A DNA stretch of 37,867 nucleotides, from the NCBI GenBank assembly GCA_002839375.1, contig PGXY01000004.1, forward strand, positions 341,817-379,683, in the 5' to 3' direction. The position numbers were made by a program, and so were the translations under genes. This document shows, one piece after another, positions 1,698 through 18,368 of this stretch. The first letter of the stretch is position 1. The number at the start of each line of letters is the position of its first letter. Source of the stretch: Spirochaetae bacterium HGW-Spirochaetae-1 (GTDB lineage Bacteria > Spirochaetota > UBA4802 > UBA5550). A model generated the notes under the pieces. It worked only from the letters and a program-made list of their open reading frames with translations, was not told the origin of the DNA and searched no databases.

Positions 1698-3053
1698 ATG
1701 ATGAAACAATCGTACAGAGTAAGTATCATACTTTTTCTTTTTATTTCAGTTTTTATGGGGGATATTTCCGCGGCGCAGCTGGATCCCCTCCTGGAGAAGC
1801 TGACGCTCTCGGGTTACATGCGCATGCGCACCTGGTACACCGGGAGCAGCATAAAGATTCCTGGTTATTTTCCCGGGTCCGGCGATTTTGAGCAGGTGAA
1901 CTACGAAGACCTTTTTTTCCGGAACCGCATCTATATCAGCGTCCTACCCGAACTGGAGATACGCTCGGTTTTTGATATCAGTTCTAAGTTCGGCCACGAT
2001 GACTTCGCCATGGGGCAGGGCGGTACCAACCTGGTCACCCGCGATGTTTATGCCCTTTTCAGGCCCGGTGAGAACATGGAGTTTTCCCTGGGGCTTATGC
2101 CCTTCAGTCTGCCGGGAGGATATATACTGGCCCGGGACGCCACGGGGCTCCGGTATCAGCACGATCTGCTGAATAAAAGGCTGAAGCTCTATGTGTCCCT
2201 CATACGAGCCTTTGATGATGCCGACACGGGATATAACGACACCACGGACATTCCCAGCTACGCCGATGACAATATTTTCATTTTCGGCGGCGACCTGGCC
2301 CTTCTCCAGGACCTGGAATCGCAGGTCTATTATGTTCTGGAGGTGGACCGGTACACATCATCGGGTGATGAAGACCCTGATTTTCTCACGCATTATTTTA
2401 TCGATGATGGAAGGCAATCGACCCTCCATTGGCTGGGGATACACAATAAATACATTATCAATGATTTCAATCTTAAATTCGGTGCTATACTCAATGCCGG
2501 GTATATCAGAACAAAAGCTGAATATACCGATGAGCCCTTTATCCGTACCGATATCCTGGCCTGCCTGTGGGAATTCGAGGCTGCCTGGAAATGGCGCGAC
2601 CTGCAGGTATCCCTGGCTGCCGAAGGGGCCACGGGAGATCCGCGCGATGCCGCATCGGGCGGATCATTCCAGGATATCAAGGCAAGTCACGGCTTTTCAC
2701 TCATAGCCGTGGATAATACGGGCGGCCTCGCCATCCGGGGAAGCGGTGAATCGAGCTGGTACGGCCTGGCAGGCCAGGGCCTGAAGTTTCAGTACACCCT
2801 TTTCAACGCCGTGCTGGTTAAACTGGGAGCGGTGCATGTCCGCACATTGAAAAACATATCATGGAACGGTTCATCTTCCACCTGGTACGGCGATGAGTGC
2901 GACCTGGAAGCCGAATATAAATACCGCGAGGTGTTGTCAGTAACAGCGTCTGCTGCGGCCTTCTTCCCCGGTGACGCCTACAGGGGAATTGTTCAGGATA
3001 GCAGTCATGGTGTCATACTGGAGTGTATGCTGGGGGCTTCGGTTACGTACTAA
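1698..3053 (+). CDS. Outer-membrane porin-like beta-barrel protein
   Basis: The 451-residue product has a signal peptide (cleavage near ISAA, about residue 26) and then a long run of amphipathic strands starting with LTLSGYMRMRTWY. This start is typical of alginate-export/OprD-like barrels that open with a 'GYxRxR' strand. The chain is rich in Tyr, Trp, Gly and Asp and ends in GASVTY, so an aromatic terminal residue is present for BAM recognition. Two adjacent ATG codons (1698 and 1701) could start it. It lies 9 bases after the binding-protein gene and is probably cotranscribed with it, which suggests a channel feeding the same periplasmic ligand. Its stop overlaps by 4 bases the stop of the convergent lipoprotein gene. 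The substrate is unknown. Confidence 0.8.
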   Translation: MMKQSYRVSIILFLFISVFMGDISAAQLDPLLEKLTLSGYMRMRTWYTGSSIKIPGYFPGSGDFEQVNYEDLFFRNRIYISVLPELEIRSVFDISSKFGHDDFAMGQGGTNLVTRDVYALFRPGENMEFSLGLMPFSLPGGYILARDATGLRYQHDLLNKRLKLYVSLIRAFDDADTGYNDTTDIPSYADDNIFIFGGDLALLQDLESQVYYVLEVDRYTSSGDEDPDFLTHYFIDDGRQSTLHWLGIHNKYIINDFNLKFGAILNAGYIRTKAEYTDEPFIRTDILACLWEFEAAWKWRDLQVSLAAEGATGDPRDAASGGSFQDIKASHGFSLIAVDNTGGLAIRGSGESSWYGLAGQGLKFQYTLFNAVLVKLGAVHVRTLKNISWNGSSSTWYGDECDLEAEYKYREVLSVTASAAAFFPGDAYRGIVQDSSHGVILECMLGASVTY

Positions 3054-3814
3054 TCTTCTACGTGATTATATTGAACTTCCTTTTGCCATTCAGTAATTGT
3101 GCCTGAAGAACGGAATTGCAGTTTGATTGTTTCTTTCTTCCCGTCATCAGTTTCATAGGTGATAAGAAAAAAATTCAGGAAGCCGGTTTTCCTGTGGTTC
3201 GTTGTATTGAGAAGAACCCACTTCTTGGAGAACAATCCCGGCGGAACAACAAATTCTTCTGCGAACAGGTGATTCCTGGGAAATATTTTCGCGTTCTCGA
3301 TATTATGCAGCACTTTATTGTATTCATTGACTGTCAGTGAGGTTAAAGCGCCCAGTCCTGTGAATGCGCCTGCCGCTTTTAAGGCTTTGTTGTCGCTGCT
3401 CATGGCAACTGTTGTACCGATAATGGCTACTGAGGCAAGGAACATATCCCTGTTGTGCTCACGTATCTCATTTCTTTTTATTATAGCTTCCTGCCAAAGG
3501 GCAAGGTCATTACCTGAGGTAAATTTAACATTTTCATTTGCCACTTCGGAAAAAAAATCTATAGTTACTTTCTTTATTCTGATCCAGCCCTGTGATTTAT
3601 TTTCAAAGGTAAGATTAACAAGACCGAAGTATTTACTGGATAAATCAGTGTCTTCCTTCGCACTGACAACTAAACCTATATCCGTTTTTTTCTTGTTTAT
3701 AACCCTGCCATTATCATCAATCTGCTCTGCGTAATATCCCGAGTGTATACTTGCACAGGATATGAGACCGATTAAAACTATAAATATGAGGGCTTTGATA
3801 TAAAAGCTTTTCAT
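3050..3814 (-). CDS. Lipoprotein of unknown function
   Basis: The 254-residue product has a type II signal peptide with lipobox LISC and Cys20 as the lipidation site. The next residue is Ala, so by the E. coli +2 rule it would go to the outer membrane. A good ribosome site (GGGAG) sits 8 bases before the ATG. The first 110 residues look like a beta-rich domain (SSKYFGLVNLTFENKSQGW). A hydrophobic Ala/Gly-rich segment at about residues 130-160 (VAIIGTTVAMSS, AAGAFTGLGALTSL) could be a buried helix or a membrane-inserting hairpin. The last 60 residues are again beta-rich and basic. I do not recognise the family. The gene is convergent with the porin and separated by 72 bases from the large HEAT-like gene on the same strand. 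Confidence 0.75.
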   Translation of the reverse strand: MKSFYIKALIFIVLIGLISCASIHSGYYAEQIDDNGRVINKKKTDIGLVVSAKEDTDLSSKYFGLVNLTFENKSQGWIRIKKVTIDFFSEVANENVKFTSGNDLALWQEAIIKRNEIREHNRDMFLASVAIIGTTVAMSSDNKALKAAGAFTGLGALTSLTVNEYNKVLHNIENAKIFPRNHLFAEEFVVPPGLFSKKWVLLNTTNHRKTGFLNFFLITYETDDGKKETIKLQFRSSGTITEWQKEVQYNHVED

Positions 3815-3886: not shown

Positions 3887-6800
3887 TTATTCAATGATGA
3901 GCCGCGAGATCTCCACCTTGTACATATTGTAGACATTGACCAGCATCTTCCGCAGGTTCCGGTTCAGCTCACGGTCCGTGGAGCGGCGCTGCACATATTT
4001 TTCGATCTCGTTGAGATGATCCAGGAGCAGGTTCCCCAGGTTTTCCAGGTCGCGGGTCACTGCCGCCGACGACGTGGACCGTCCCCCCCGGCGAATGTTT
4101 TTCAGCTCCGTCTCCAGTTCCTCCTCCAGATGCTTTTTTGTCTCGCGGTCCCTGAAGAGGCTGTCCAGCACCGATTCGGCATAGTCCTTAAAATTAACGG
4201 GACTGCTGATCTCGTAATGCTTCACTGCTGACACGGTGCTGCTGAAGAGCAGTTCGGATATGATCTTGCCGGCGAAGCGCTCCTTCACCATGGACCAGGT
4301 GCTTTCATCGATGATTACAATATCGTACAGCGTTTTGTCCAGAACCGGATCGATTATATACGAAGGATAATGCACCAGTTCGTCGCCGATACGGTCCACT
4401 GGGACCGTTATGATCTGGTTGAGGACATGGATGCGGTTTTTAAAAATTTTGCCCGAGCTGTAAGACTTTATGTTCTCAACGATCCTCAGGGAGGCATTGA
4501 CGGCGTCGGCGGGATCATTGAAGTATGATGTGATCTGTTCATTTGTTATGCGCGATATGATTCCACGGTGTTCGGTGATGGCCGAGGAGATAAAGGATTT
4601 TACACGGAGGTTCATTCTTATCATCTGGGCCACGCTGGAGCCCTTGAGTTTCTGGTCCTCGCCAATGACGTTTATGTTAACGATGGTGACGGTATCGTGT
4701 TTCAGGTTGTCGACCCGTATGGTCTGTTTTGTTTCCGTGAGATTCAGGTCACCGAAATCGGGAGCCTCGAATTTCCTGAAAATGTTGACGATGAACCCGT
4801 CGATTTCCTTCAGGTCCTCTTCGGGCAGCAGTTTCAGCACGGCTGTTATGTCGTCGCTCATGCCGTATTCCTCTTTGAGGAGAGATACCAGGAAAAAGGA
4901 AAACTCGATGGAACGGAGCTCTCCCAGGATGGTGAGAATATCCCGCTGTATTATCTTGTTCTTGATGATGAGCATGTCGCGTATGGAGCGAAGGGCCTCG
5001 TTATCACCCATTTTTATAAGGCAGAGGCACGAGTATATCCTGACCCGTATTCCCGGATCTTTCAGGTATTCATGGAAATAACGGGTCACCTGCCGCTTGT
5101 TGTATTTTTCCGAGGTGAATATAATTTCCCCCATGGCGCGGACGATCATATCCTTGCCTTCGCTGTTGTTCATGGTGAAAAAGAGTTCATTGAGATAGTC
5201 TATATCGCCGTCAAAACCGCATTTCCCCAGGCCGAGAATGGCCTGGTTGCGTATCGACTGCATCGTGTTATTCTCTATTATTTTTTTGAATATCTGGTTC
5301 GCCGTCATGTTGTTGACGATGTCACGTTCGAGCATTATTTCCAGTGCAGTTTCTATGATTCCCGATTCCTCCGTGACCCTTGTCTGTAGAAACTCAAAGA
5401 GAATATTCAGGGAGCGTTGTTCCGTGTAGAACGAGATGAGCCCAAGCGCCTTTAACTGTTCTTCGGGGACGCCCGTAGTCAGGAGTATCTCTATCTCGCC
5501 CAGCATGTAGGAATAATTGAGTATGGCAAGGGTCTGAATTATGGTATGTATAAGGTCCTGGTCGGGATATTTTTTCAGGTAGTTATAGATGTTCACCAGC
5601 GGGGATGCGGCTTCCTCAATATGAAGAAGGGCGATGATATTGCAGAGCCGCAGAATCCTGTTGCGGAGATATCGTTTTTCGAACTCAATATCCTCGATGC
5701 GCGACGCGGAATTTTCCCTGGATTTTTTATCATCATCGAAAAGAATTTCTATAAGATGATGGAGCTGTTCCTTTTCATGTTCGCCGATGAAGGGTATCCA
5801 GCCCGCATAATCCTTTATGATCAGGTGCGTGTTTCTCGATTCGTCCGATGAGAGAAAATAGATCGTCCGTTTCTTCAGTTCCGGTGTCATGTTCTCCAGA
5901 ATAAATTTTCTCAGCATCTGGAAACTCTCGGGATAGCTCTTTTCCGCGACACTCCTGATCATGTATTCCTTGCGGTAGGTTTCAAAATAAGATTCCAGCG
6001 TCACCACGATATAACTGAAAAGCTTGTCTTTAAGAATATGATATTTTCTTTCCTCACCGATTCCAGTGAAAAATTTAATAAACATCTCAACAATGAGTTC
6101 ATTGTCACGCTGTGATTCGGTCGATAGGGCGATGAGATTTCTGAAGAGCTTGTCCGGGTCCTTGAGTTTTTCGATGTTCGTGTTGAGCGCGTACAGCGTC
6201 ATGCTGATGAGCTCGGTGTTTTTCGAGGTAAGAGCTTTCATGACATAGATGAGGTATTCCCGGTGATTGCATGAGACCATGGCGGTAATGAAGGCCACTT
6301 TTGTTCCCGTTGAATAATTCTCGAAACGCGGAGACATCTTACCCAGGAGGACGCGGATATCCAATATTATTTTGTCTTCGTCGGTCTGGCTTGTCGAGTA
6401 CGTATACAGATCGGTTTCATCGGAACCCATGGCTCGTCCCGCGGCGATATTGAGCTGATTGTTCATGTCCGCGATGGTCCGGTATACATAATAGCTCAGT
6501 GTGTCATTGTTCATTTTCAGTATTTCCTCGAGAACGGAAATGATCCTGAAAGATGACAGAGACAATATAGCCTCGCATTGAAAGTGGATATGGGGTTCCG
6601 GAGTGTCTATCATATTAATGAGGAAATGCATCACTTCATCGGACTGCGCTCCTATGGTCTGGATCACCCTGAAGGCTTTGGTGAGAATAAGCCGTGACAC
6701 AGTTTCCGCATTCTGCTCCTGGATGAATGACATGACCTCGGGCACATCATCGGCGCTTCCGTATTTCTGGATATGGTCGAGTATGAAGATTTTTTCATTG

Positions 6801-7054
6801 TCAGTCAGACTTTTCGCCAGCAGAGGCTTTATGGCCGTCAGGATCTGCGGTTTGGGGATGTCCGTAAAAATGGCCAGGGCGCTTTCACGTATATCGGGGC
6901 CCTTTTCCAGCTCCTTGAGAAGGATGCTCACGCCGATATCGGTTTTCAGCATACCCAATATCTTGTGAAAGGCCAGGCGTTCGTAGGGTACCAGCTTGAA
7001 ATTTCTGCTGATTTCCAGCTTGATGCTCTGTAAAAGGTTTTTGTCCTGTTCCAC
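3887..7054 (-). CDS. HEAT-like repeat protein with a degenerate class III nucleotide cyclase-like C-terminal domain
   Basis: The product is 1055 residues, starts at GTG (AGGA 8 bases upstream) and has no signal peptide. Residues about 30-770 are paired amphipathic helices of the HEAT/armadillo type (for example IRNQAILGLGKCGFDGDID and RVRIYSCLCLIKMGDNEALR), a scaffold for binding other proteins. Residues about 785-945 resemble a class III adenylate/guanylate cyclase domain. VTIVNINVIG takes the place of the usual 'VxxxFxDIxGF' strand, and ITNEQITSYF takes the place of 'IGDxxMAxF'. The two metal-binding Asp positions are Asn795 and Glu839, 44 residues apart as in true cyclases, so catalysis is unlikely. 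Residues 950-1055 are charged helices. It is probably a cytoplasmic scaffold or nucleotide sensor. It is divergent from the FlgT-like lipoprotein gene. Confidence 0.8.
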   Translation of the reverse strand: MEQDKNLLQSIKLEISRNFKLVPYERLAFHKILGMLKTDIGVSILLKELEKGPDIRESALAIFTDIPKPQILTAIKPLLAKSLTDNEKIFILDHIQKYGSADDVPEVMSFIQEQNAETVSRLILTKAFRVIQTIGAQSDEVMHFLINMIDTPEPHIHFQCEAILSLSSFRIISVLEEILKMNNDTLSYYVYRTIADMNNQLNIAAGRAMGSDETDLYTYSTSQTDEDKIILDIRVLLGKMSPRFENYSTGTKVAFITAMVSCNHREYLIYVMKALTSKNTELISMTLYALNTNIEKLKDPDKLFRNLIALSTESQRDNELIVEMFIKFFTGIGEERKYHILKDKLFSYIVVTLESYFETYRKEYMIRSVAEKSYPESFQMLRKFILENMTPELKKRTIYFLSSDESRNTHLIIKDYAGWIPFIGEHEKEQLHHLIEILFDDDKKSRENSASRIEDIEFEKRYLRNRILRLCNIIALLHIEEAASPLVNIYNYLKKYPDQDLIHTIIQTLAILNYSYMLGEIEILLTTGVPEEQLKALGLISFYTEQRSLNILFEFLQTRVTEESGIIETALEIMLERDIVNNMTANQIFKKIIENNTMQSIRNQAILGLGKCGFDGDIDYLNELFFTMNNSEGKDMIVRAMGEIIFTSEKYNKRQVTRYFHEYLKDPGIRVRIYSCLCLIKMGDNEALRSIRDMLIIKNKIIQRDILTILGELRSIEFSFFLVSLLKEEYGMSDDITAVLKLLPEEDLKEIDGFIVNIFRKFEAPDFGDLNLTETKQTIRVDNLKHDTVTIVNINVIGEDQKLKGSSVAQMIRMNLRVKSFISSAITEHRGIISRITNEQITSYFNDPADAVNASLRIVENIKSYSSGKIFKNRIHVLNQIITVPVDRIGDELVHYPSYIIDPVLDKTLYDIVIIDESTWSMVKERFAGKIISELLFSSTVSAVKHYEISSPVNFKDYAESVLDSLFRDRETKKHLEEELETELKNIRRGGRSTSSAAVTRDLENLGNLLLDHLNEIEKYVQRRSTDRELNRNLRKMLVNVYNMYKVEISRLIIE

Positions 7055-7280: not shown

Positions 7281-7329
7281 AACTCCTGGATATTTTAATC
7301 TATAACATTGTCGGGCAGGAGAGTTGATA

Positions 7330-8574
7330 ATGAAAAAAGGACTTGTCATCATACTCAGTATTTTTTTAGTCGCAGGGACTGTTTCATGCGGAGGCGGTAA
7401 GCAGACCAAGGGCAGCAAATCGTCTTCCTCAAAGCAAACGCTTCCGGCGAACCGGGGTCAGGCCACGGGTTATGCTACTATTTATGACAGCGATACGGCC
7501 CTGGCCAGGGACCGCGCCACCGATGACGCCAAGAGCAAGCTGGTGCGTCAGGTTCTGGGTGAAACCATCGAAGGCAGAAGCATCATGAAGAACTTCGAGC
7601 TGGTGGAAAGCATCGTGGAAGCCAAGTCAATCGGTCTGGTCAAGCATGACAAGATCATAAAGCAGTGGCAGGCCGGTTCGGAGTATTTCGTAACACTCGA
7701 AGGAACGGTGGAGCCCACGGCAGTAGCCGATGCCATAGCCGATATCCTGAATACCTACGGTCGGCCCAAATTTATGGTGCTGATCCAGGAGACCTTTGAA
7801 GGGAAAAAGCAGATGCCCGGTTTCACCGAAACGGAAATGATCATTCAGGAGATCATGGGTAACTCGGGATTCGAGTTTGTCGATGCGGGGATGACCCAGC
7901 AGCTCATGAAGCGTGACCGGCAGAAAATGACCAGGGCCATGAACGGCCAGGTCAGCGATGATGTCCAGGACCTTCTGCTCAATGACGTGGGAGCTGAAGT
8001 AATCATCATAGGAACGGCCCAGACTAATGACCAGTCAGCCGCCCTCAGCGCTTACGGCGCCACGAACATGAAGTCAAAATCGGCCATTGTCCGCCTCAAA
8101 GCCATCGATGTGTATACGGGCCGCATCATCGCCACCATCAGCAGGAATGCCCCGGGAGTCCATATCGATAATGACACGGCATCCAAAAAGGCCATAGAGA
8201 AGGTTTTCCAGCTTATCCTGGGTAAAACCGACCCCGATACGGGCAAGTTTTCCATCGGGCCCTTCATGGAAACCATAACCAACAGTTTTGTCAAGGCAGC
8301 CTCGGAGCGCCAGATCAATCTTCTGGTCTCAGGGCTGGAATATAATGATCTGACGAAATTCAGGAATGACCTGGCACAGCGTATCCGCGGGGTGAAAAAT
8401 GTGAATCCCAAGGGACAGGCCGGGAAGGCAGCAAAACTGGAGCTCTATTTCGCCGGTAAAACCAATGACTTTGCCGATGAACTCGTAGCAAAAGCGGGCA
8501 ATATGGGATATAACATCCAGGTAAAGGAGAGCTATCCCAATAAGCTGGTGCTTGTGGTAAAATTGAATAAATAG
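7330..8574 (+). CDS. FlgT/LPP20-like lipoprotein with a CsgG-like middle domain
   Basis: The ATG at 7330 is chosen because AGGAG sits 8 bases before it; an in-frame TTG at 7324 is less likely. The 414-residue product has lipobox TVSC with Cys20, followed by a Ser/Lys-rich linker. Residues about 45-130 contain GYATIYDSDTALARDRATDDAKSKL, the pattern of the FlgT N-terminal/LPP20 domain (an Ala-rich helix after a short strand). Residues about 140-320 (MVLIQETFEG, GAEVIIIGTAQT, SAIVRLKAIDVYTGRII) resemble CsgG/TolB-N-type folds found in envelope assembly lipoproteins. A third alpha/beta segment closes the chain. Such proteins sit in the outer membrane and, in Vibrio, support the flagellar H/T-ring. 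Assignment to flagella here is inference. It is a single-gene transcript with its own promoter and terminator. Confidence 0.7.
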   Translation: MKKGLVIILSIFLVAGTVSCGGGKQTKGSKSSSSKQTLPANRGQATGYATIYDSDTALARDRATDDAKSKLVRQVLGETIEGRSIMKNFELVESIVEAKSIGLVKHDKIIKQWQAGSEYFVTLEGTVEPTAVADAIADILNTYGRPKFMVLIQETFEGKKQMPGFTETEMIIQEIMGNSGFEFVDAGMTQQLMKRDRQKMTRAMNGQVSDDVQDLLLNDVGAEVIIIGTAQTNDQSAALSAYGATNMKSKSAIVRLKAIDVYTGRIIATISRNAPGVHIDNDTASKKAIEKVFQLILGKTDPDTGKFSIGPFMETITNSFVKAASERQINLLVSGLEYNDLTKFRNDLAQRIRGVKNVNPKGQAGKAAKLELYFAGKTNDFADELVAKAGNMGYNIQVKESYPNKLVLVVKLNK

Positions 8575-8823: not shown

Positions 8824-9453
8824 ATGAGGGGGATGATGGAAGAGGACAACACTTTTGAGAAGATCGAAAAAGGGGCAATTATGGAATTTTCTCAATTTGG
8901 CTTTGAGGGAGCCAGAATAGACCGTATCGCGCAAAAAGCGAAGATAAACAAGGCCATGATATATTACCATTTTAAAGGGAAGGAGGCCCTCTATGAGCAC
9001 ATCGTCAAGAGAATTGTGTCGGGTATTTATGATACCATCAGCCCATTGATACCTGAAAACCCTGAATCCGTAGCGGATTTTGAGCGCCTGCTGCGGGGAT
9101 ATTCGTCCTATATGGGCAGCCTGGATGAGAACTATATCAAGATCATGCTTCGTGAGATTGCCTCGGGAGGAAAGTATTTCAAAAAAATAACGGTCCCTAT
9201 TCTTTTGCAGCCGGTCATGAAAAATGTAATGGATATGTTCACCAGCGGTAAAAAGAAAGGACTATTTGCCGATATTCATCCTCTCTATACCATGCTGCAG
9301 CTTATGGGTTCTGTTGTTTTTTTTAACATGCTCAGGACTACCATCAGGGATACCGCCATCGCGGACCTGATATTTCAGGAAGATTTTATAAACAAGTACG
9401 CGGAAAATCTGCTCAAAATATATTCCGGCGGAATTTTCGTCGATAAGAGGTGA
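8824..9453 (+). CDS. TetR/AcrR-family transcriptional repressor of the efflux operon
   Basis: The product is about 209 residues, the usual size of the family. The N-terminal DNA-binding domain is clear: IDRIAQKAKINKAMIYYHF (about residues 33-51) is the helix-turn-helix, followed by KGKEALYEH. The C-terminal all-helical part (about 70-209) is the ligand and dimer domain and is variable. The start is uncertain. ATG codons occur at 8824, 8833 and 8836; GAGGGGG at 8826-8832 could serve as ribosome site for 8836, while 8824 has none and lies near the predicted transcript start. The gene heads an operon, with its stop codon just before the TolC-like gene, and the layout matches E. coli cecR next to ybhGFSR. 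It probably represses itself and the exporter until an exported compound binds. Confidence 0.9.
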   Translation: MRGMMEEDNTFEKIEKGAIMEFSQFGFEGARIDRIAQKAKINKAMIYYHFKGKEALYEHIVKRIVSGIYDTISPLIPENPESVADFERLLRGYSSYMGSLDENYIKIMLREIASGGKYFKKITVPILLQPVMKNVMDMFTSGKKKGLFADIHPLYTMLQLMGSVVFFNMLRTTIRDTAIADLIFQEDFINKYAENLLKIYSGGIFVDKR

Positions 9454-9458
9454 TGCTT

Positions 9459-10856
9459 ATGCTGAAGAGGAAAGCCCTGTTCGTTATAATAACGGCATTG
9501 ATACTGTCATATAATGTCAAAGCGGCAACGGCACAGGAGAAGCCCGCCATTTCCGTTGATGAGGCCGTGATCATAGCATTGGGAAATAATCAGGATTACA
9601 AAATTGCCTCTCACAGACTGGAGGAGGCCGATGAAAAAGTCAATGCCGTCTGGGGCCAGCTTCTGCCGGCCCTGGAATCGGAGGCCTCCATCCTGAGGCA
9701 GGGCGCAGACACCGGACCCATGAGTCTCAGTGACGGTCAGTATGATCTGAAGTTCATACAACTCCGCTTCGGCATAAATCCCGGCGCCTTTTATCATTCA
9801 TTGAAGCAGTCTCATGCGGGATATGCTCTGGCAAAAGAGGAACTGCGCAGGATCAGGCACGAAGTGGAATTCAATGTAATCAAGGGCTATTTTGACGCCA
9901 TCCTGACAGGAGAGACAGTCACCCTGCGAAGTAATTCCCTGCAGGTACTGCGGGAAAACCTGAAGGATGTGCGGAGGATGTATCAGACCGGCAGCGTGCC
10001 CAGGTTCGAGCTGCTCCAGGCCCAGGTACAGCTGCAGAATCAGGAGCCTGTTATGCGTGAAGCCGAAAATAATTACAGGACAGCCCTGGAAATATTTAAT
10101 TATCATCTGGGATTTAATGCCATTACATATACGGTAAAAATTGATGATGTTGATAAGAGCACCATCAGGCTCCCAGCTGAAGAGTCTGTAATACCCGGGC
10201 TGATAAACGCAGCTATGAAAAACAGACCTGAGGTTTTGCAGGTATCTCTTCAGAAGGATGCCCTGAATCATTCACGAAAAGTCCACCAGTCATCGTATCT
10301 GTGGCCTACCTTTTCTGTTTCCGGATACTATGGAAAAACATATCAGCTTCCTAATCCCGTTAATATTAACCTGGGAGGGGGACCTTCACCGGACCTTTCG
10401 CAGATTACCGGATCAAAGGACTGGCAGGATACCTGGCAGGTTCGTTTTGCGGCGACATACCGGTGGGGAACCCTGATACCCTTTGATTCTCAGCGTGCCC
10501 TTGAACGGGAGGAACGTGAGAAGATACAGGAGACAGAACAGAAACTACTGCAGATACAGCGGCTGACGGGGATAACCATACGTACCAGTTTTGGCAGGCT
10601 GAGTACGTCCTATGAAACGATCCTGAGCCAGGAGAAGAACCTGGAGACCGCGGAAGAGGGACTTCGGATTGCCAGGGAAAGCTACAGAGCCGGCGTAATA
10701 AAAAATGCCGATCTTCTCAATGCCGAACTGGCCCTCACGAGTGCCAGAACAGGATACGTGAAGGCCCTCTATGATTATTACATGAGCAGGGCGGAACTGA
10801 ACAGGGAAATCGGTGTTAACAGTGATACAGTATTATTCCGGGAGGATTCGAAATGA
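9459..10856 (+). CDS. TolC-family outer-membrane efflux channel
   Basis: The ATG at 9459 is preferred because AAGAGG lies 8 bases upstream; GTG at 9450 and ATG at 9453 are alternatives. The 465-residue product has a signal peptide (cleavage near AATA). It then shows the two-fold outer-membrane efflux protein pattern: SVDEAVIIALGNNQDYKIA at the start of the first half and IRTSFGRLSTSYETILSQEK...GVIKNADLLNAELALTSART in the second half, with long coiled-coil helices between strands. The conserved 'YRAGVxxxxDLLxAE' motif is present. It forms the trimeric exit duct of a tripartite exporter whose adaptor is encoded next with a 4-base overlap. The membership of an outer-membrane channel in this operon differs from E. 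coli ybh, which uses a channel encoded elsewhere. Confidence 0.9.
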   Translation: MLKRKALFVIITALILSYNVKAATAQEKPAISVDEAVIIALGNNQDYKIASHRLEEADEKVNAVWGQLLPALESEASILRQGADTGPMSLSDGQYDLKFIQLRFGINPGAFYHSLKQSHAGYALAKEELRRIRHEVEFNVIKGYFDAILTGETVTLRSNSLQVLRENLKDVRRMYQTGSVPRFELLQAQVQLQNQEPVMREAENNYRTALEIFNYHLGFNAITYTVKIDDVDKSTIRLPAEESVIPGLINAAMKNRPEVLQVSLQKDALNHSRKVHQSSYLWPTFSVSGYYGKTYQLPNPVNINLGGGPSPDLSQITGSKDWQDTWQVRFAATYRWGTLIPFDSQRALEREEREKIQETEQKLLQIQRLTGITIRTSFGRLSTSYETILSQEKNLETAEEGLRIARESYRAGVIKNADLLNAELALTSARTGYVKALYDYYMSRAELNREIGVNSDTVLFREDSK

Positions 10857-11659
10857 AAATAAATAAAAAATTTGTTCCACTGGCCATAGCCATAATCATC
10901 ATCACCGGGGCGACCCTTTACTTCGAAGTGTTCAGGGACCTGGGAGAAAACGGCAACACTATAAAGGGCAGCGGAACCATTGAGGTAACGGAAATTGAGA
11001 TCGCCTCAAAGATAGCCGGCAGGGTCATGGCTCTTCCCCACGAGGAAGGCGACACGGTGAAGGAGGGAGGACTGCTGGTGAAACTTGCCTATGATGAACT
11101 TGACGCTCAGCGTCTTTCTGCCGTGGCCAATATGAATAATGCGGAAAAAAACCTGAAGCGGGTACGGGATCTGAATGCCACCGGTTCAATTTCCAAAAAG
11201 GATCTGGATAACGCAGAAATGGTCTATCGTGTCGCCAGGGCCAACTATGAGTATGTTGCTGCAACCATTGAACAGGCTGTTATCTATTCTCCCGTCAATG
11301 CAACCATATTGGAGAGAAACCTTGAAGTAGGAGAACTGGCCTTTCCGGGCACGCCGGTAATCACCCTGGCCGATCTTACGAGGCCGTGGATAAAGATATA
11401 TGTGCAGGAAAAACGGATCGGGAGGGTAAAACTTGGTCAGAAGGCCGTTATAACCGTTGATTCATTCAAAGACAGAAATTTCAGCGGGAAGGTTGTTTCC
11501 ATAGCCAACAAGGCGGAGTTTACTCCCAAGACAATCCAGACAAAAGAGGAACGCGTGAAGCTCGTCTTCGCCGTGAAGATAGCCGTGGAAAACCCCGGCA
11601 TATCCCTGAAGCCCGGGATGCCGGCCGATGCGGAAATCATTTTGGGAGAAGAGAAGTGA
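10853..11659 (+). CDS. HlyD/YbhG-like periplasmic adaptor (membrane fusion protein)
   Basis: The 268-residue product starts at an ATG overlapping the TolC-like stop (ATGA), a sign of translational coupling. One N-terminal membrane anchor (residues 7-25) is followed by the split lipoyl domain (GSGTIEVTEIEIASKIAGRV ... LPHEEGDTVKEG ... LVKL). A short coiled-coil hairpin of about 60 residues comes next, then the second lipoyl half (IYSPVNATILERNLEVGE) and a beta-barrel domain (PWIKIYVQEKRIGRVKLGQ). At 268 residues it is compact for the family. It links the inner-membrane ABC transporter to the TolC-like channel. The ATPase gene overlaps its stop by 4 bases. Confidence 0.9.
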   Translation: MKINKKFVPLAIAIIIITGATLYFEVFRDLGENGNTIKGSGTIEVTEIEIASKIAGRVMALPHEEGDTVKEGGLLVKLAYDELDAQRLSAVANMNNAEKNLKRVRDLNATGSISKKDLDNAEMVYRVARANYEYVAATIEQAVIYSPVNATILERNLEVGELAFPGTPVITLADLTRPWIKIYVQEKRIGRVKLGQKAVITVDSFKDRNFSGKVVSIANKAEFTPKTIQTKEERVKLVFAVKIAVENPGISLKPGMPADAEIILGEEK

Positions 11660-12579
11660 TCGCCGTTCGATCATTAACAAAATCATTCGGGGACCTGCGA
11701 GCCGTTTCCTCCCTGGATTTTGACGTGCGCAGAGGGGAAATTTTTGGCATAGTGGGTCCCGATGGCGCCGGCAAGAGTACGATTCTTCGCATGTTGTCAA
11801 CAATACTGGTTCCCGAAGAGGGGAATATTAGTATTGATGGTATGGATATTTTCCGGAACCAGAATACCGTCAAGGAGATGATTGCCTACATGCCGCAGCG
11901 TTTCGGTCTTTACGAAGACCTCACTGTTGAGGAAAATATCTTTTTTTTCGGCAGGCTCTTCGGGCTGAAGAAAAAGCAGATCAGGGAACGCCTTCCCGTG
12001 CTCTATGGTTTCAGCAGCCTGGGGCCCTTCAGCGACAGACTGGCGGGAAAACTTTCAGGCGGGATGAAACAGAAGCTGGGCCTGGCCTGCTGCCTGGTCC
12101 ACAGGCCCCGTCTTATTCTCCTGGATGAACCTACCAACGGAGTCGATCCCGTGTCCCGGAGAGAATTCTGGAAGATACTCTATGAGCTGCTCAGCGACGG
12201 CGTGACCATCGTGGTGAGCACGGCCTATCTCGACGAGGCGGAACGCTGCAGTCGTGTGGCCCTCATGTACCAGGGTAAATTCATTCGCATCGGTGAGCCC
12301 CGTGAGGTAAGGATGATGATCGGCGAGTACCTCCTGGAGATACTCTGCGACAGGCCCCGGGAGGCCGAGGAGGTTCTCAGGACAGTGAAGGAATACAGGA
12401 AGATCATCAGGAGCGGGGAGTCGCTGCGTATTTTTGTCGGCAATGCACAGCGCTATAAAAAGGCAATAGAGTCCCTGCTTAAAGCAAAGGGAATTACCGT
12501 CAGGGAAATACGGACCATTGCTCCTTCCCTGGAGGACACCTTTGTGGAAGTCATCGTGAGGGAGGAATCACTGTCATGA
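11656..12579 (+). CDS. ABC exporter ATPase, YbhF N-terminal-half type
   Basis: The 307-residue product starts at GTG overlapping the adaptor stop. Walker A is GPDGAGKST at 34-42, with Asp where most ATPases have Asn. The Q-loop is in AYMPQRFGLYEDLTVEEN, the signature LSGGMKQKL starts at residue 133, Walker B is LILLDEP with Asp157 and Glu158, and the His switch position is altered (VSTAYLDEAERC, Tyr in place of the usual His). The GPDGAGK form and the missing His also suggest relation to the first half of E. coli YbhF. The C-terminal 90 residues form the usual regulatory tail of ABC-2 exporters. It probably pairs with the ATPase at 14899-15825 as a heterodimer with one degenerate site. Confidence 0.88.
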   Translation: MIAVRSLTKSFGDLRAVSSLDFDVRRGEIFGIVGPDGAGKSTILRMLSTILVPEEGNISIDGMDIFRNQNTVKEMIAYMPQRFGLYEDLTVEENIFFFGRLFGLKKKQIRERLPVLYGFSSLGPFSDRLAGKLSGGMKQKLGLACCLVHRPRLILLDEPTNGVDPVSRREFWKILYELLSDGVTIVVSTAYLDEAERCSRVALMYQGKFIRIGEPREVRMMIGEYLLEILCDRPREAEEVLRTVKEYRKIIRSGESLRIFVGNAQRYKKAIESLLKAKGITVREIRTIAPSLEDTFVEVIVREESLS

Positions 12580-13724
12580 AAGCAGTCAGATCTTTGCAGA
12601 GGATCATGGCCCTGGCAGATAAGGAATGGATACAGATCCGGCGTGATGCCCGCAGCCTCATACTATCGCTCATCGCACCGGCTCTGCTGGTTGTGCTTTT
12701 TGGCTATGCTCTTAATATGGATGTTAAGCATGTTTCCATAACGATCATGGACCAGGACAGAACCGCCTTTTCTCGGCAGATGATCGAAAAATTTTCACAC
12801 ACGGAGTATCTGCAGATACACGGCTATGCTAAGACTTACAAAGAGATTGATAAGCTTCTGAACAGCGGCGAGGCTTCCCTGGCCCTGGTAATTCCTCCTG
12901 ACTTTACGCGGCGAGTAAAGGCCGGTCGAAAAGCAAAACTGCAACTTCTGGTGGATGGTTCCGATTCCATGTCTTCTACGGTGGCGGCAGGATATGTACA
13001 GGCCATTCTTATGGAATTCAATCTGGATGTGCAGATGAAAGGCCTGAATCGCGCCGGAATATCAAAACTGCGCCTACCCCTGGATGTCAGGAGCCGTGTC
13101 TGGTATAACGAGGAGTTGCAGAGTAAGAACCTGATTATTCCGGGAATTATCGTCATCATCCTTGCTATCATTTCGGCCCTAATTACGTCGCTGACTATAT
13201 CGCGCGAGTGGGAGCGGGGTACCATGGAGACCCTCATTACAACGCCGGTACGACCCTTTGAGGTGATGACCGGGAAGCTCATCCCCTATCTCATAATAGG
13301 GACCTTCGATGTGGTTATGACGTTTCTTGTGGGATATTTTTTCTTCGGCATTTACCTGAGAGGCAGCTTTATTGAACTGCTGCTGCTCTCGGTGCTTTTT
13401 CTTATCGGCACTTCCACCCTGGGGATACTGATATCCTCGGTTACGAAGGTACAGGTCCTTTCCATACAGGCCGCCGTGGTGGTGACCTATCTCCCGTCAT
13501 TCATCCTTTCAGGATTTGTTTTTCCCATTCAGAATATGCCTATGGTAATCCAGGCAATCACCTATCTCATCCCGGCAAAATATATGATAACCATAATCAA
13601 GGGAATTGTCCTGAAAGGAACGGCCGCGTCGCTTCTTGCAACCCAGATTGTTTTCATGGCGGTCTTCGCCGTGGTGGCCGTGCTTATTGGAATCCGGAAA
13701 TTCAGGCTTACGATCAATGATTGA
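12576..13724 (+). CDS. ABC-2 type permease (YbhS-like)
   Basis: The 382-residue product begins at an ATGA overlap with the ATPase gene. It has an N-terminal membrane helix (LILSLIAPALLVVLFGYALNM, about residues 27-47) and a periplasmic domain of about 130 residues that starts with VKHVSITIMDQDRTAFSRQM. Five C-terminal membrane helices then include LIIPGIIVIILAIISALIT and SREWERGTMETLITTPVRP, the conserved cytoplasmic 'E-R-G-T-x-E' motif of ABC-2 permeases. The layout matches YbhS/YhhJ-type half-permeases, which pair with a second permease. Its partner is encoded directly downstream. Confidence 0.88.
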   Translation: MKAVRSLQRIMALADKEWIQIRRDARSLILSLIAPALLVVLFGYALNMDVKHVSITIMDQDRTAFSRQMIEKFSHTEYLQIHGYAKTYKEIDKLLNSGEASLALVIPPDFTRRVKAGRKAKLQLLVDGSDSMSSTVAAGYVQAILMEFNLDVQMKGLNRAGISKLRLPLDVRSRVWYNEELQSKNLIIPGIIVIILAIISALITSLTISREWERGTMETLITTPVRPFEVMTGKLIPYLIIGTFDVVMTFLVGYFFFGIYLRGSFIELLLLSVLFLIGTSTLGILISSVTKVQVLSIQAAVVVTYLPSFILSGFVFPIQNMPMVIQAITYLIPAKYMITIIKGIVLKGTAASLLATQIVFMAVFAVVAVLIGIRKFRLTIND

Positions 13725-13738
13725 GGGGTAGGGGAATA

Positions 13739-14896
13739 ATGAACTTTATAAATCCCATGAATGTCCGGAGCATGCTGAAAAAGGAATTCAAGCAGCTTTT
13801 CCGGGATCCGCGTATGCGGGCCATGATTGTCGGGCCCCCCATTATCATGCTCATGCTCTTCGGATACGCCGTTAATACCGATGTAAACGAGGTAAGGATG
13901 GCCGTAATAGACGGGGACAGGACCGCCATGAGCAGGGATTTCATAAGCGCCTTCACATCATCGCCTACTTTTGAGTTCTACGCCTATGTTGATTCCCCGG
14001 CAAAGGCCGTAGAGATGCTGGACCGGGGAGATATTGATTTTTTCATGCAGATCGAGAGGGGCTTTTCACGTAATATAAGAAAGGGCCTTACTGCCGGTGC
14101 GCAGGTGATCATTGACGGTTCAGACTCAAGCCGGGCTTCGGTGATTATTTCATATATCAATGCCGTGATTCTGGCCCGCACCCAGGATTTCATGAAGGAC
14201 AGGATCAGGCTGGCCGTTCTGCAGCAAGGGGCTGCGGGCCGGAAAATGCCCGGTAGTATCAATCTGGAGCAGAGAATATTTTTCAATCAGGATCTTACCA
14301 GCAGAAATTTCTTTCTTCCCGGCGTTATCGGGCTGCTCATCGCGCTGTTAACCATTATGGTAACATCCATGTCCATTGTCAAAGAAAGGGAATCAGGGAC
14401 CATTGAGCAGATTAACGTGTCTCCCCTGCGCCCCCTTGAGTATATCCTGGGGAAGATGATCCCCTTTGCACTGGTGGCTTTTGTCGACATCTGCATTATA
14501 GTATTCCTGGCAATTACATGGTTCAATGTCCCCTTTCAGGGCAGTTTTATTTTTCTGCTCTTCAGCGGCGTTGTATTCATTCTTTCAACGCTGGCCGTAG
14601 GGCTTTATATTTCCACTATCTCGACGACACAGCAGCAGGCCATGCTCTCTTCATTTTTGTTTTTTTTACCCGCCATGCTGCTCTCAGGATTCGTTTTCCC
14701 CATATATTCCATGCCGGAAAGCATCCAGCTCGTAACCTATTTAAATCCACTGCGGTATTTTATGACGATAATACGTTCTGTTTTTCTGAAGGGAGGCAAC
14801 ATCATGATATTATGGAAGGATCTTTTTCTTTTACTTCTCCTTGGAGCAACGCTCCTGTTCATGAGCGTTAAACGATACAGCAAGAGGATGGCCTGA
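13739..14896 (+). CDS. ABC-2 type permease (YbhR-like)
   Basis: The ATG at 13739 is preferred, with GGGGTAGGGG just upstream; an in-frame TTG at 13721 overlaps the previous stop. The 385-residue product repeats the architecture of its neighbour: a first helix (MIVGPPIIMLMLFGYAVN), a periplasmic domain beginning VNEVRMAVIDGDRTAMSRDF, and five C-terminal helices with KERESGTIEQINVSPLRP as the conserved motif. The two permeases are clearly related to each other along their length and probably form a heterodimer. The next gene, 2 bases downstream, encodes the second ATPase. Confidence 0.88.
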   Translation: MNFINPMNVRSMLKKEFKQLFRDPRMRAMIVGPPIIMLMLFGYAVNTDVNEVRMAVIDGDRTAMSRDFISAFTSSPTFEFYAYVDSPAKAVEMLDRGDIDFFMQIERGFSRNIRKGLTAGAQVIIDGSDSSRASVIISYINAVILARTQDFMKDRIRLAVLQQGAAGRKMPGSINLEQRIFFNQDLTSRNFFLPGVIGLLIALLTIMVTSMSIVKERESGTIEQINVSPLRPLEYILGKMIPFALVAFVDICIIVFLAITWFNVPFQGSFIFLLFSGVVFILSTLAVGLYISTISTTQQQAMLSSFLFFLPAMLLSGFVFPIYSMPESIQLVTYLNPLRYFMTIIRSVFLKGGNIMILWKDLFLLLLLGATLLFMSVKRYSKRMA

Positions 14897-14898
14897 CA

Positions 14899-15825
14899 AT
14901 GGAATATTCCGTTGATGTACGAAACCTGACACGGACCTTTGGCGATTTCACCGCCGTGAACAATGTGAGTTTTTCGGTCAAAAAAGGCGAGATATTCGGT
15001 TTTCTGGGTCCCAACGGCGCCGGGAAAAGCACCACAATTAAAATGCTCTGCGGCCTCCTCATGCCCTCTTCCGGCGAGGGGCATGTTGCCGGCATGGACA
15101 TCATGGACCAGCAGGAGGAGATCAAAAAAATAATCGGGTACATGTCCCAGCGTTTTTCACTGTATGACGATCTATCGGTAAAGGAGAACCTCGAGTTTTT
15201 CGGCAGCATCTATGGGCTGCAGGGAGCGAGGCTCAGGGAGAGGATGGAATTCGTTATTGATATGGTGGGTCTGGAAGAACGACGTGACTCATTGGTTAAA
15301 AATCTTCCCGGCGGTATAAAACAGCGGCTGTCACTGGGAACGGCCATAATCCATGATCCGCCGGTTCTATTCCTCGATGAACCGACATCGGGAGTTGACC
15401 CCCTCATGCGCCGGACATTCTGGGAACAGATATACGCCTTTTCAGCCCAGGGCAAGACCATTTTCGTGACAACGCATTATATGGATGAGGCGGAGCATTG
15501 TGACCGGATAGCCCTCATTATAGCCGGAACCATCATTGCCCTGGATACGCCCGACAGCCTGAAAAATACAATTCCCAGTGATGTTTTTCTCATCCGGAGC
15601 GATTCATTTCTTGATACCTTTGAGATTCTTTCCCGGCAGGATTTTGTCCAGGAGGCTGCACTTTTCGGAACAGATATACACATTATAGTAAAGGACGGTC
15701 GGGGAATAACGCAGCGCATTCGTTCCCTCTTAGAGGAAAAGGATGGCAAGCGTATCATGATACGGAAAATCAGGCCCTCCCTGGAGGATGTTTTCGTTGT
15801 CCATTCAAGGAATTATGGTCTGTGA
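14899..15825 (+). CDS. ABC exporter ATPase, YbhF C-terminal-half type
   Basis: The 308-residue product has Walker A GPNGAGKST at 37-45, a Q-loop in GYMSQRFSLYDDLSVKEN and a signature written LPGGIKQRL instead of LSGGQ. It also has Walker B VLFLDEPTSGVDP and a normal His switch (VTTHYMDEAEHC). The replaced signature Ser and the intact His are the reverse of the other ATPase in the operon. The two would therefore complement each other as a heterodimer with one full composite site. It lies 2 bases after the second permease and closes the operon; the convergent chemoreceptor gene ends 10 bases further on. No terminator hairpin fits in that gap. Confidence 0.88.
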   Translation: MEYSVDVRNLTRTFGDFTAVNNVSFSVKKGEIFGFLGPNGAGKSTTIKMLCGLLMPSSGEGHVAGMDIMDQQEEIKKIIGYMSQRFSLYDDLSVKENLEFFGSIYGLQGARLRERMEFVIDMVGLEERRDSLVKNLPGGIKQRLSLGTAIIHDPPVLFLDEPTSGVDPLMRRTFWEQIYAFSAQGKTIFVTTHYMDEAEHCDRIALIIAGTIIALDTPDSLKNTIPSDVFLIRSDSFLDTFEILSRQDFVQEAALFGTDIHIIVKDGRGITQRIRSLLEEKDGKRIMIRKIRPSLEDVFVVHSRNYGL

Positions 15826-17393: not shown

Positions 17394-18368
17394 ATGGAAG
17401 ATAACAAAAAATTATCCCTGCAGTTTACCGGTAATGGCGGCGATCTGTTTATCATTTATCTGATCAACGCACTACTGATACCTTTCACTCTGGGAATTTA
17501 TTTTTTCTGGGGAAGCGTGAAGATTAAAAAATATTTTCATGAAAACCTGGAATTTTTAGGCGGCCGGTTCGGCTATCATGCCACGGGGAAGGAGCGATTT
17601 TTCGGTTTTCTCAAGGCAGTAGCAATGGTCATTGTTCTGGGTGCTGCTATGTTTGTCTTGATGAAACTGCTGTCATTCATCGTTGGAGAGAAGGCAGCAG
17701 CCATTATAATAATGATTTTTTTATACGGCGGAATTATAATACTTATTCCCGTCATACAGGTGGGAACACTGCGGTATAATCTGAGCAGGACCTCGTGGAA
17801 GGAATACCGTTTCCGCTTTACCGGAAGGCCCTCAGATATGTTGGTTATCTATATCAAGGGTCTTGTTCTTACAGCAATAACACTGGGAATATATGCTCCA
17901 TGGTTCATCTGCAGTCTTTCGGCCTTTATCATGGGCAATACAAAAATAGGGAATGAAAGTTTTGAGTATACGGGGAACGGGAAGGATCTTCTTTTCAAGG
18001 TTGTAAAAGGGATTCTTCTTTCAATTATAACCCTGGGCATATATGTGCCGTGGTACATCGCGGACATTGAAAGGTACAACTGGGAACATACGCTGTTTCA
18101 GGGCAAGCCTTTCAAATCCGACATGACGGGAGGACAGCTTTTTGGAGCCATGCTGATATCAACCATACTGGTTATGTTCACGTTTGGAATCGGCTTCGCC
18201 TGGGCCGTTGTGCGGATCCGGAAGGTTTATCTCGATTCCCTGTCCATAACGGCTGAACCCGATATTATCGGTCTTGTTAATATCGATGATAAGGATGCCT
18301 CGGCGACTACATCGGGGGTAGAGGATCTGGGATCTCTTCTTGATACGCTGGCTGATTTTATCGGCTAA
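17394..18368 (+). CDS. YjgN/DUF898-family integral membrane protein
   Basis: The 324-residue product has the repeating signature of the DUF898 (YjgN) family: a soluble 'F-x-G-x-G-x-D' turn followed by a membrane helix that ends in TLGIY and an aromatic 'W' element. I see TLGIYFFWG at residue 32, TLGIYAPWF at 163, TLGIYVPWY at 213 and the degenerate TFGIGFAW at 263. The last three are spaced exactly 50 residues apart, which points to internal duplication. A C-terminal tail of about 45 residues is acidic and soluble (VNIDDKDASATTSGVEDLG). The family is widespread in the inner membrane, but I know of no established function. An AGGGGAGG box lies upstream but about 15 bases from the ATG, an unusually long spacing. 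Confidence 0.85.
   Translation: MEDNKKLSLQFTGNGGDLFIIYLINALLIPFTLGIYFFWGSVKIKKYFHENLEFLGGRFGYHATGKERFFGFLKAVAMVIVLGAAMFVLMKLLSFIVGEKAAAIIIMIFLYGGIIILIPVIQVGTLRYNLSRTSWKEYRFRFTGRPSDMLVIYIKGLVLTAITLGIYAPWFICSLSAFIMGNTKIGNESFEYTGNGKDLLFKVVKGILLSIITLGIYVPWYIADIERYNWEHTLFQGKPFKSDMTGGQLFGAMLISTILVMFTFGIGFAWAVVRIRKVYLDSLSITAEPDIIGLVNIDDKDASATTSGVEDLGSLLDTLADFIG

Follow-up and report, generated by a model that had tools for sequence, protein, structure and literature searches.

A predicted HEAT-scaffold pseudo-cyclase conserved across an uncultured order of Spirochaetota

What does a bacterium keep when a nucleotidyl cyclase borne on a long helical scaffold no longer has its catalytic residues? This question is raised by a gene in a 37,867-nucleotide stretch of contig PGXY01000004.1 from Spirochaetae bacterium HGW-Spirochaetae-1, referred to here as the window. 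The open reading frame reported in a preliminary description of the letters alone is indeed present at 3887..7054 on the minus strand, as are all of its parts given below. It has a GTG start and, with the stop codon included in the coordinates, predicts a protein of 1055 aa; the start residue is the same across the aligned orthologues. In a single-sequence Pfam scan, the sole domain above cut-off is HEAT_2 at residues 635-696 (E 5e-8, 33.5 bits against a cut-off of 27.7), and neither PF00211 nor any other cyclase domain is matched even at E 10. PF00211 does not rank among the 25 families that 40 members of the orthologue set match most often, and no NCBIfam family is matched by the protein. 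Matches to ADPrib_exo_Tox in the domain (E 0.018) and to MLKL_N and DUF3209 in the tail were rejected, being under the cut-off and absent from most orthologues. No signal peptide or membrane segment was seen, and by inspection the protein is predicted to be cytosolic.

AlphaFold2 models were built with an alignment of 40 orthologues, the full-length model starting at residue 2 (mean pLDDT 86.7, pTM 0.81) and a C-terminal model at residue 765 (mean pLDDT 83.5). The full-length model consists of paired helices over residues 1-763, an alpha/beta domain over residues 785-952 and three long helices that run to the C terminus. The all-helical first part (4766..7054), which contains the HEAT_2 match, is a predicted HEAT/ARM-type solenoid. 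It is followed by a linker of residues 764-784 (4703..4765) with pLDDT of about 50 and variable, gapped alignment columns, and the tail helices occupy residues ∼954-1055 (3890..4195). The best structural matches of the full-length model are solenoids of the importin/SF3B1/CAND1 type, with TM-scores of 0.16-0.28 that indicate only the general fold type of the scaffold.

For the C-terminal model, class III cyclases are the top Foldseek matches (E 9e-10) and fill the top 50 structural matches. Dozens of them reach VIA-align Z scores of about 20 across 156-176 residues; 3r5g, for example, aligns with Z 19.9 and an rmsd of 2.6 over 169 residues. When the family profile was compared with the sequences of the PDB, class III cyclases again came first, 3mr7 and others being matched at E 1.8e-7 and 2e-4. 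The window genome itself encodes eight intact PF00211 cyclases, and a profile-profile comparison with these gave a probability of 97% and E 7e-11. Because of the PDB profile matches and the profile-profile score, the likeness to cyclases is not a chance pattern, and in the models residues 785-952 (4199..4702) adopt the class III cyclase fold. Structure prediction on this domain, proposed in the preliminary description as a check, thus recovered the fold, and similarity to PF00211, the other check, is detectable with profiles but not with the single sequence. The pattern that had been picked out there by eye is the cyclase domain that the standard Pfam scan missed.

In the alignment with intact cyclases, Asn795 (codon 4670..4672) and Glu839 (codon 4538..4540) fall on the columns of the first and second metal-binding Asp, 44 residues apart, exactly as had been read from the sequence. 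However, a search for conservation of this pair gave a negative answer, since it was found in the window sequence only. Position 795 is mostly E, V, S, N, D or I among the orthologues, and position 839 is mostly G, with S, H, D and E also found. A conserved, altered metal site is thereby ruled out. Because the Asn/Glu pair occurs nowhere else, the window protein should not be seen as a cyclase whose metal site was altered; that site has drifted freely. Neither both metal Asp residues nor the transition-state Asn is present in any of the 40 orthologues, and the phosphate-binding Lys column is scattered, as is that of the transition-state Arg; the alignment is least certain around the transition-state Asn and Arg. 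Both Asp residues, the Asn and the Arg are present in 6 of 6 HEAT-repeat cyclases from elsewhere in the phylum, described below, and in all 8 cyclases of the window genome. Where the catalytic helix (VNxxxR) would be expected, the models show mostly loop. By these computations every set of catalytic residues tested is lost throughout the order. Loss of the beta4-beta5 hairpin was considered as a lesion and ruled out, the intact HEAT-cyclases having the same short hairpin. Fold, profiles and order-wide catalytic loss agree with the earlier proposal of a dead class III cyclase on a helical-repeat scaffold, here of ∼760 residues.

The pseudo-cyclase is present as a single copy in 45 of the 46 genomes examined from this uncultured Spirochaetota order. 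The exception is a 94% complete genome (G007), from which the gene is missing through either loss or an assembly gap. Most orthologues are full length, with 31-51% identity over that length, and four are cut by contig ends. One further orthologue (L023, G009:C213) is interrupted around residue 180 by a single in-frame TAG, which is either an assembly error or the mark of a pseudogene. Among the genomes examined from other orders, none encodes a protein at this level of full-length identity. Querying the genome collection with the single protein found nothing, and querying it with the alignment found 37 loci. No plasmid copy was found, and the named records that include the protein are nearly all from metagenome-assembled Spirochaetes or Spirochaetota.

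Across the phylum, 296 genomes were searched with the family profile. Besides ordinary cyclases, this recovered open reading frames 1020-1090 residues long from three other families. These have HEAT_2 and PF00211 both above cut-off and are co-linear with the protein of the order, a solenoid of ∼700-760 residues being followed by the cyclase fold. The HEAT-cyclases outside the order retain both Asp residues, the Asn, the Arg and the Lys; at least 6 co-linear examples (L054 and L131-L135) keep all tested catalytic residues, a count that is a lower bound as two candidates were scored per genome. In the nearest intact relative the Asp pair is at residues 805 and 849, a spacing that is also 44. In the class of G060, HEAT-cyclase sequences were found in 6 of 8 genomes, some with several paralogues (L131-L135, L142 and L184-L188), and the catalytic motifs are intact where they were read.

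The relationship extends to the scaffold. When scaffold profiles alone were compared, 656 columns were aligned with E 7e-31, and single intact scaffold sequences gave co-linear alignments over 322-637 columns. In control comparisons, the longest alignment was 187 columns for seven other HEAT proteins of the window genome and 89 columns for reversed sequences, the latter without significance. Of the five single intact scaffolds, two (L132 and L134) gave E-values within the control range, though their alignments are co-linear. A plain search with the intact L131 protein matched three proteins of the order across both scaffold and domain (E ∼1e-10), and no second HEAT-cyclase of an order genome was seen among the matches listed. 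By these computations the solenoid of the order is homologous to that of the intact HEAT-cyclases found elsewhere in the phylum.

The dead domains group together as a single clade (100/100) in a phylogeny of cyclase domains, and the stem of that clade measures 2 changes per site. The attachment of this clade is unsure because the stem is so long, and a single group of dead domains and intact HEAT-cyclases is neither rejected (p 0.36) nor resolved. Homology of the scaffolds is better evidence of common descent than the cyclase-domain tree. The simplest history would be a single inactivation at or before the common ancestor of the order.

The two kinds of protein differ in where constraint lies. 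Among the intact proteins, similarity is higher in the cyclase domain than in the scaffold for 10 of 10 pairs (0.36-0.72 versus 0.15-0.50), whereas among the order proteins it is lower in the domain than in the scaffold for 780 of 780 pairs (mean 0.23 versus 0.44); the pairs share ancestry and are not independent, and the direction is uniform. The cyclase domain is the fastest-evolving part of the order protein, and in close pairs its dN/dS is 0.09-0.23, as against 0.04-0.14 for the scaffold. Among the orthologues the domain is 161-169 residues long with a mean identity of 23%, and its well-conserved positions include N866, E892, D916 and N954. Because it is under purifying selection and of near-constant length, the dead domain is judged to be a maintained fold rather than a decaying one.

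In the tail, residues 1016-1055 are among the most conserved parts of the protein (0.52), and within them lies a motif (residues 1016-1048, 3911..4009) with the order consensus EI-KYVQKRSTDRELI-NV-KML----------E, in which R1024, D1027, M1037 and E1048 are invariant among orthologues. Its YVQKRSTDREL segment is an order-specific C-terminal motif and one of the most constrained parts of the protein, and no counterpart was detected in the tails of the intact HEAT-cyclases. A likeness between the two kinds of tail that was noted by eye lacked support as homology, hhalign giving E 0.05 over 8 columns. Computed over the aligned proteins, selection is now tighter on the scaffold and the C-terminal helical motif than on the cyclase fold.

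Neighbouring genes of the order loci include no conserved operon partner, and there is no cyclase gene among the recurrent neighbours. Downstream of the pseudo-cyclase gene, 24 of 33 order loci (L029:6115-6972, L056:10185-11447 and 22 others) encode a secreted TPR protein in tail-to-tail orientation, often less than 30 bases away; in the window this place is taken by a small lipoprotein (3050-3814). A DUF6175 lipoprotein-like gene is divergent and upstream in 13 of the 33 orthologous loci, including the window (7324-8574, plus strand), and its product is ∼56-70% identical in closer relatives. Neither arrangement implies co-transcription with the pseudo-cyclase gene. Further along the plus strand of the window, 8824-15825 includes genes for a TetR-type regulator, a TolC-like protein, a HlyD-like adaptor and two ABC ATPase/permease sets, which on reading of the translations appear to form an ordinary efflux-type operon, and 17394-18368 predicts a DUF898 membrane protein.

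Taken together, the gene product is probably a scaffold or adaptor without catalytic activity, descended from a class III nucleotidyl cyclase with HEAT repeats. An ancestral HEAT-cyclase would have lost catalysis once and taken on a structural adaptor role, in which the solenoid and the tail may provide binding surfaces for putative partners. The former cyclase domain might then serve as a folded spacer, or as a protein-binding module, between the two. A fuller version, which we put forward tentatively, is that a catalytic HEAT-cyclase became a near-universal, order-specific adaptor as selection shifted from the active site to the solenoid and a C-terminal helical motif that had newly arisen, the latter docking a conserved and putatively core partner.

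The main rival to this adaptor is a regulatory pseudo-subunit, the dead domain pairing with one of the eight intact PF00211 cyclases of the same genome and the scaffold positioning or regulating that enzyme. Dimerisation is the rule among class III cyclases, and mammalian adenylyl and soluble guanylyl cyclases, with their non-catalytic halves, provide a model for such pairing; the retained cyclase fold and the purifying selection on the domain would also fit it. However, each half of the known cyclase heterodimers retains part of the active site and here no part is retained. A domain that evolves faster than the rest of the protein, at its low mean identity, is also an ill fit to one conserved heterodimer interface, and the recurrent neighbours lack any cyclase gene. 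This explanation is considered unlikely.

Sensing of a nucleotide or another small molecule, in which a remodelled pocket binds a ligand without turnover, is distinctly improbable. In its favour are the retained, pocket-bearing fold and the conservation of four residues of the domain (N866, E892, D916 and N954), but a shared ligand should preserve a shared pocket and the metal, transition-state and phosphate-contacting columns all drift between orthologues, the catalytic helix being mostly loop in the model. A nucleotide sensor had been suggested in the preliminary description; nucleotide sensing is unlikely because no tested pocket residue is held, the metal, transition-state and phosphate residues being gone or drifting in every orthologue. 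That the domain has only a general alpha/beta resemblance to cyclases, with no cyclase ancestry, would fit the lack of a Pfam cyclase match for the single sequence at E 10, but is scarcely credible given that class III cyclases take all of the top 50 places, with Z scores of about 20 across 160-170 residues, that the significant profile matches are cyclases, and that there are co-linear relatives with intact catalytic residues.

Dead cyclase domains are known, as are HEAT scaffolds. Literature searches found no description of a HEAT plus cyclase architecture or of a bacterial pseudo-cyclase, which is weak evidence of absence; what appears to be new is an order-wide, HEAT-fused pseudo-cyclase with an intact counterpart in other lineages of the phylum. 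Pseudoenzymes are often recognised singly, without their working counterparts. As a single phylum harbours this architecture in both an intact and a dead version, the consequences of losing catalysis can be read directly, namely a relaxed active site, a retained fold, a tightened scaffold and a new tail. The gene is also near-core in this uncultured spirochaete order, and a standard domain scan would label its product as a HEAT-repeat protein only.

Among known systems, the class III nucleotidyl cyclases (PF00211; CyaB of P. aeruginosa 3r5g, Ma1120 4wp8 and the Silicibacter protein 3mr7) have the same fold, the same order of strands and helices and, like the intact relatives, the 44-residue distance between the two metal positions, whereas the pseudo-cyclase, at 7-16% identity to them, is without the metal Asp pair, the transition-state Asn and Arg and the phosphate Lys. 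The HEAT-cyclases of other Spirochaetota share with it the co-linear solenoid and cyclase fold in a total length of 1020-1090 residues, but differ in keeping the catalytic residues, in scoring against PF00211 and in having no detected counterpart of YVQKRSTDREL. In the C1/C2 domains of the mammalian tmAC and the alpha subunit of soluble guanylyl cyclase, the cyclase fold is likewise retained with loss of catalytic residues. However, these are obligate heterodimer halves that share one active site, whereas the pseudo-cyclase has no catalytic part left and is borne on a HEAT solenoid. With importin-beta, CAND1 and SF3B1 it has in common a long helical superhelix of the protein-binding scaffold type, a likeness of general fold type only.
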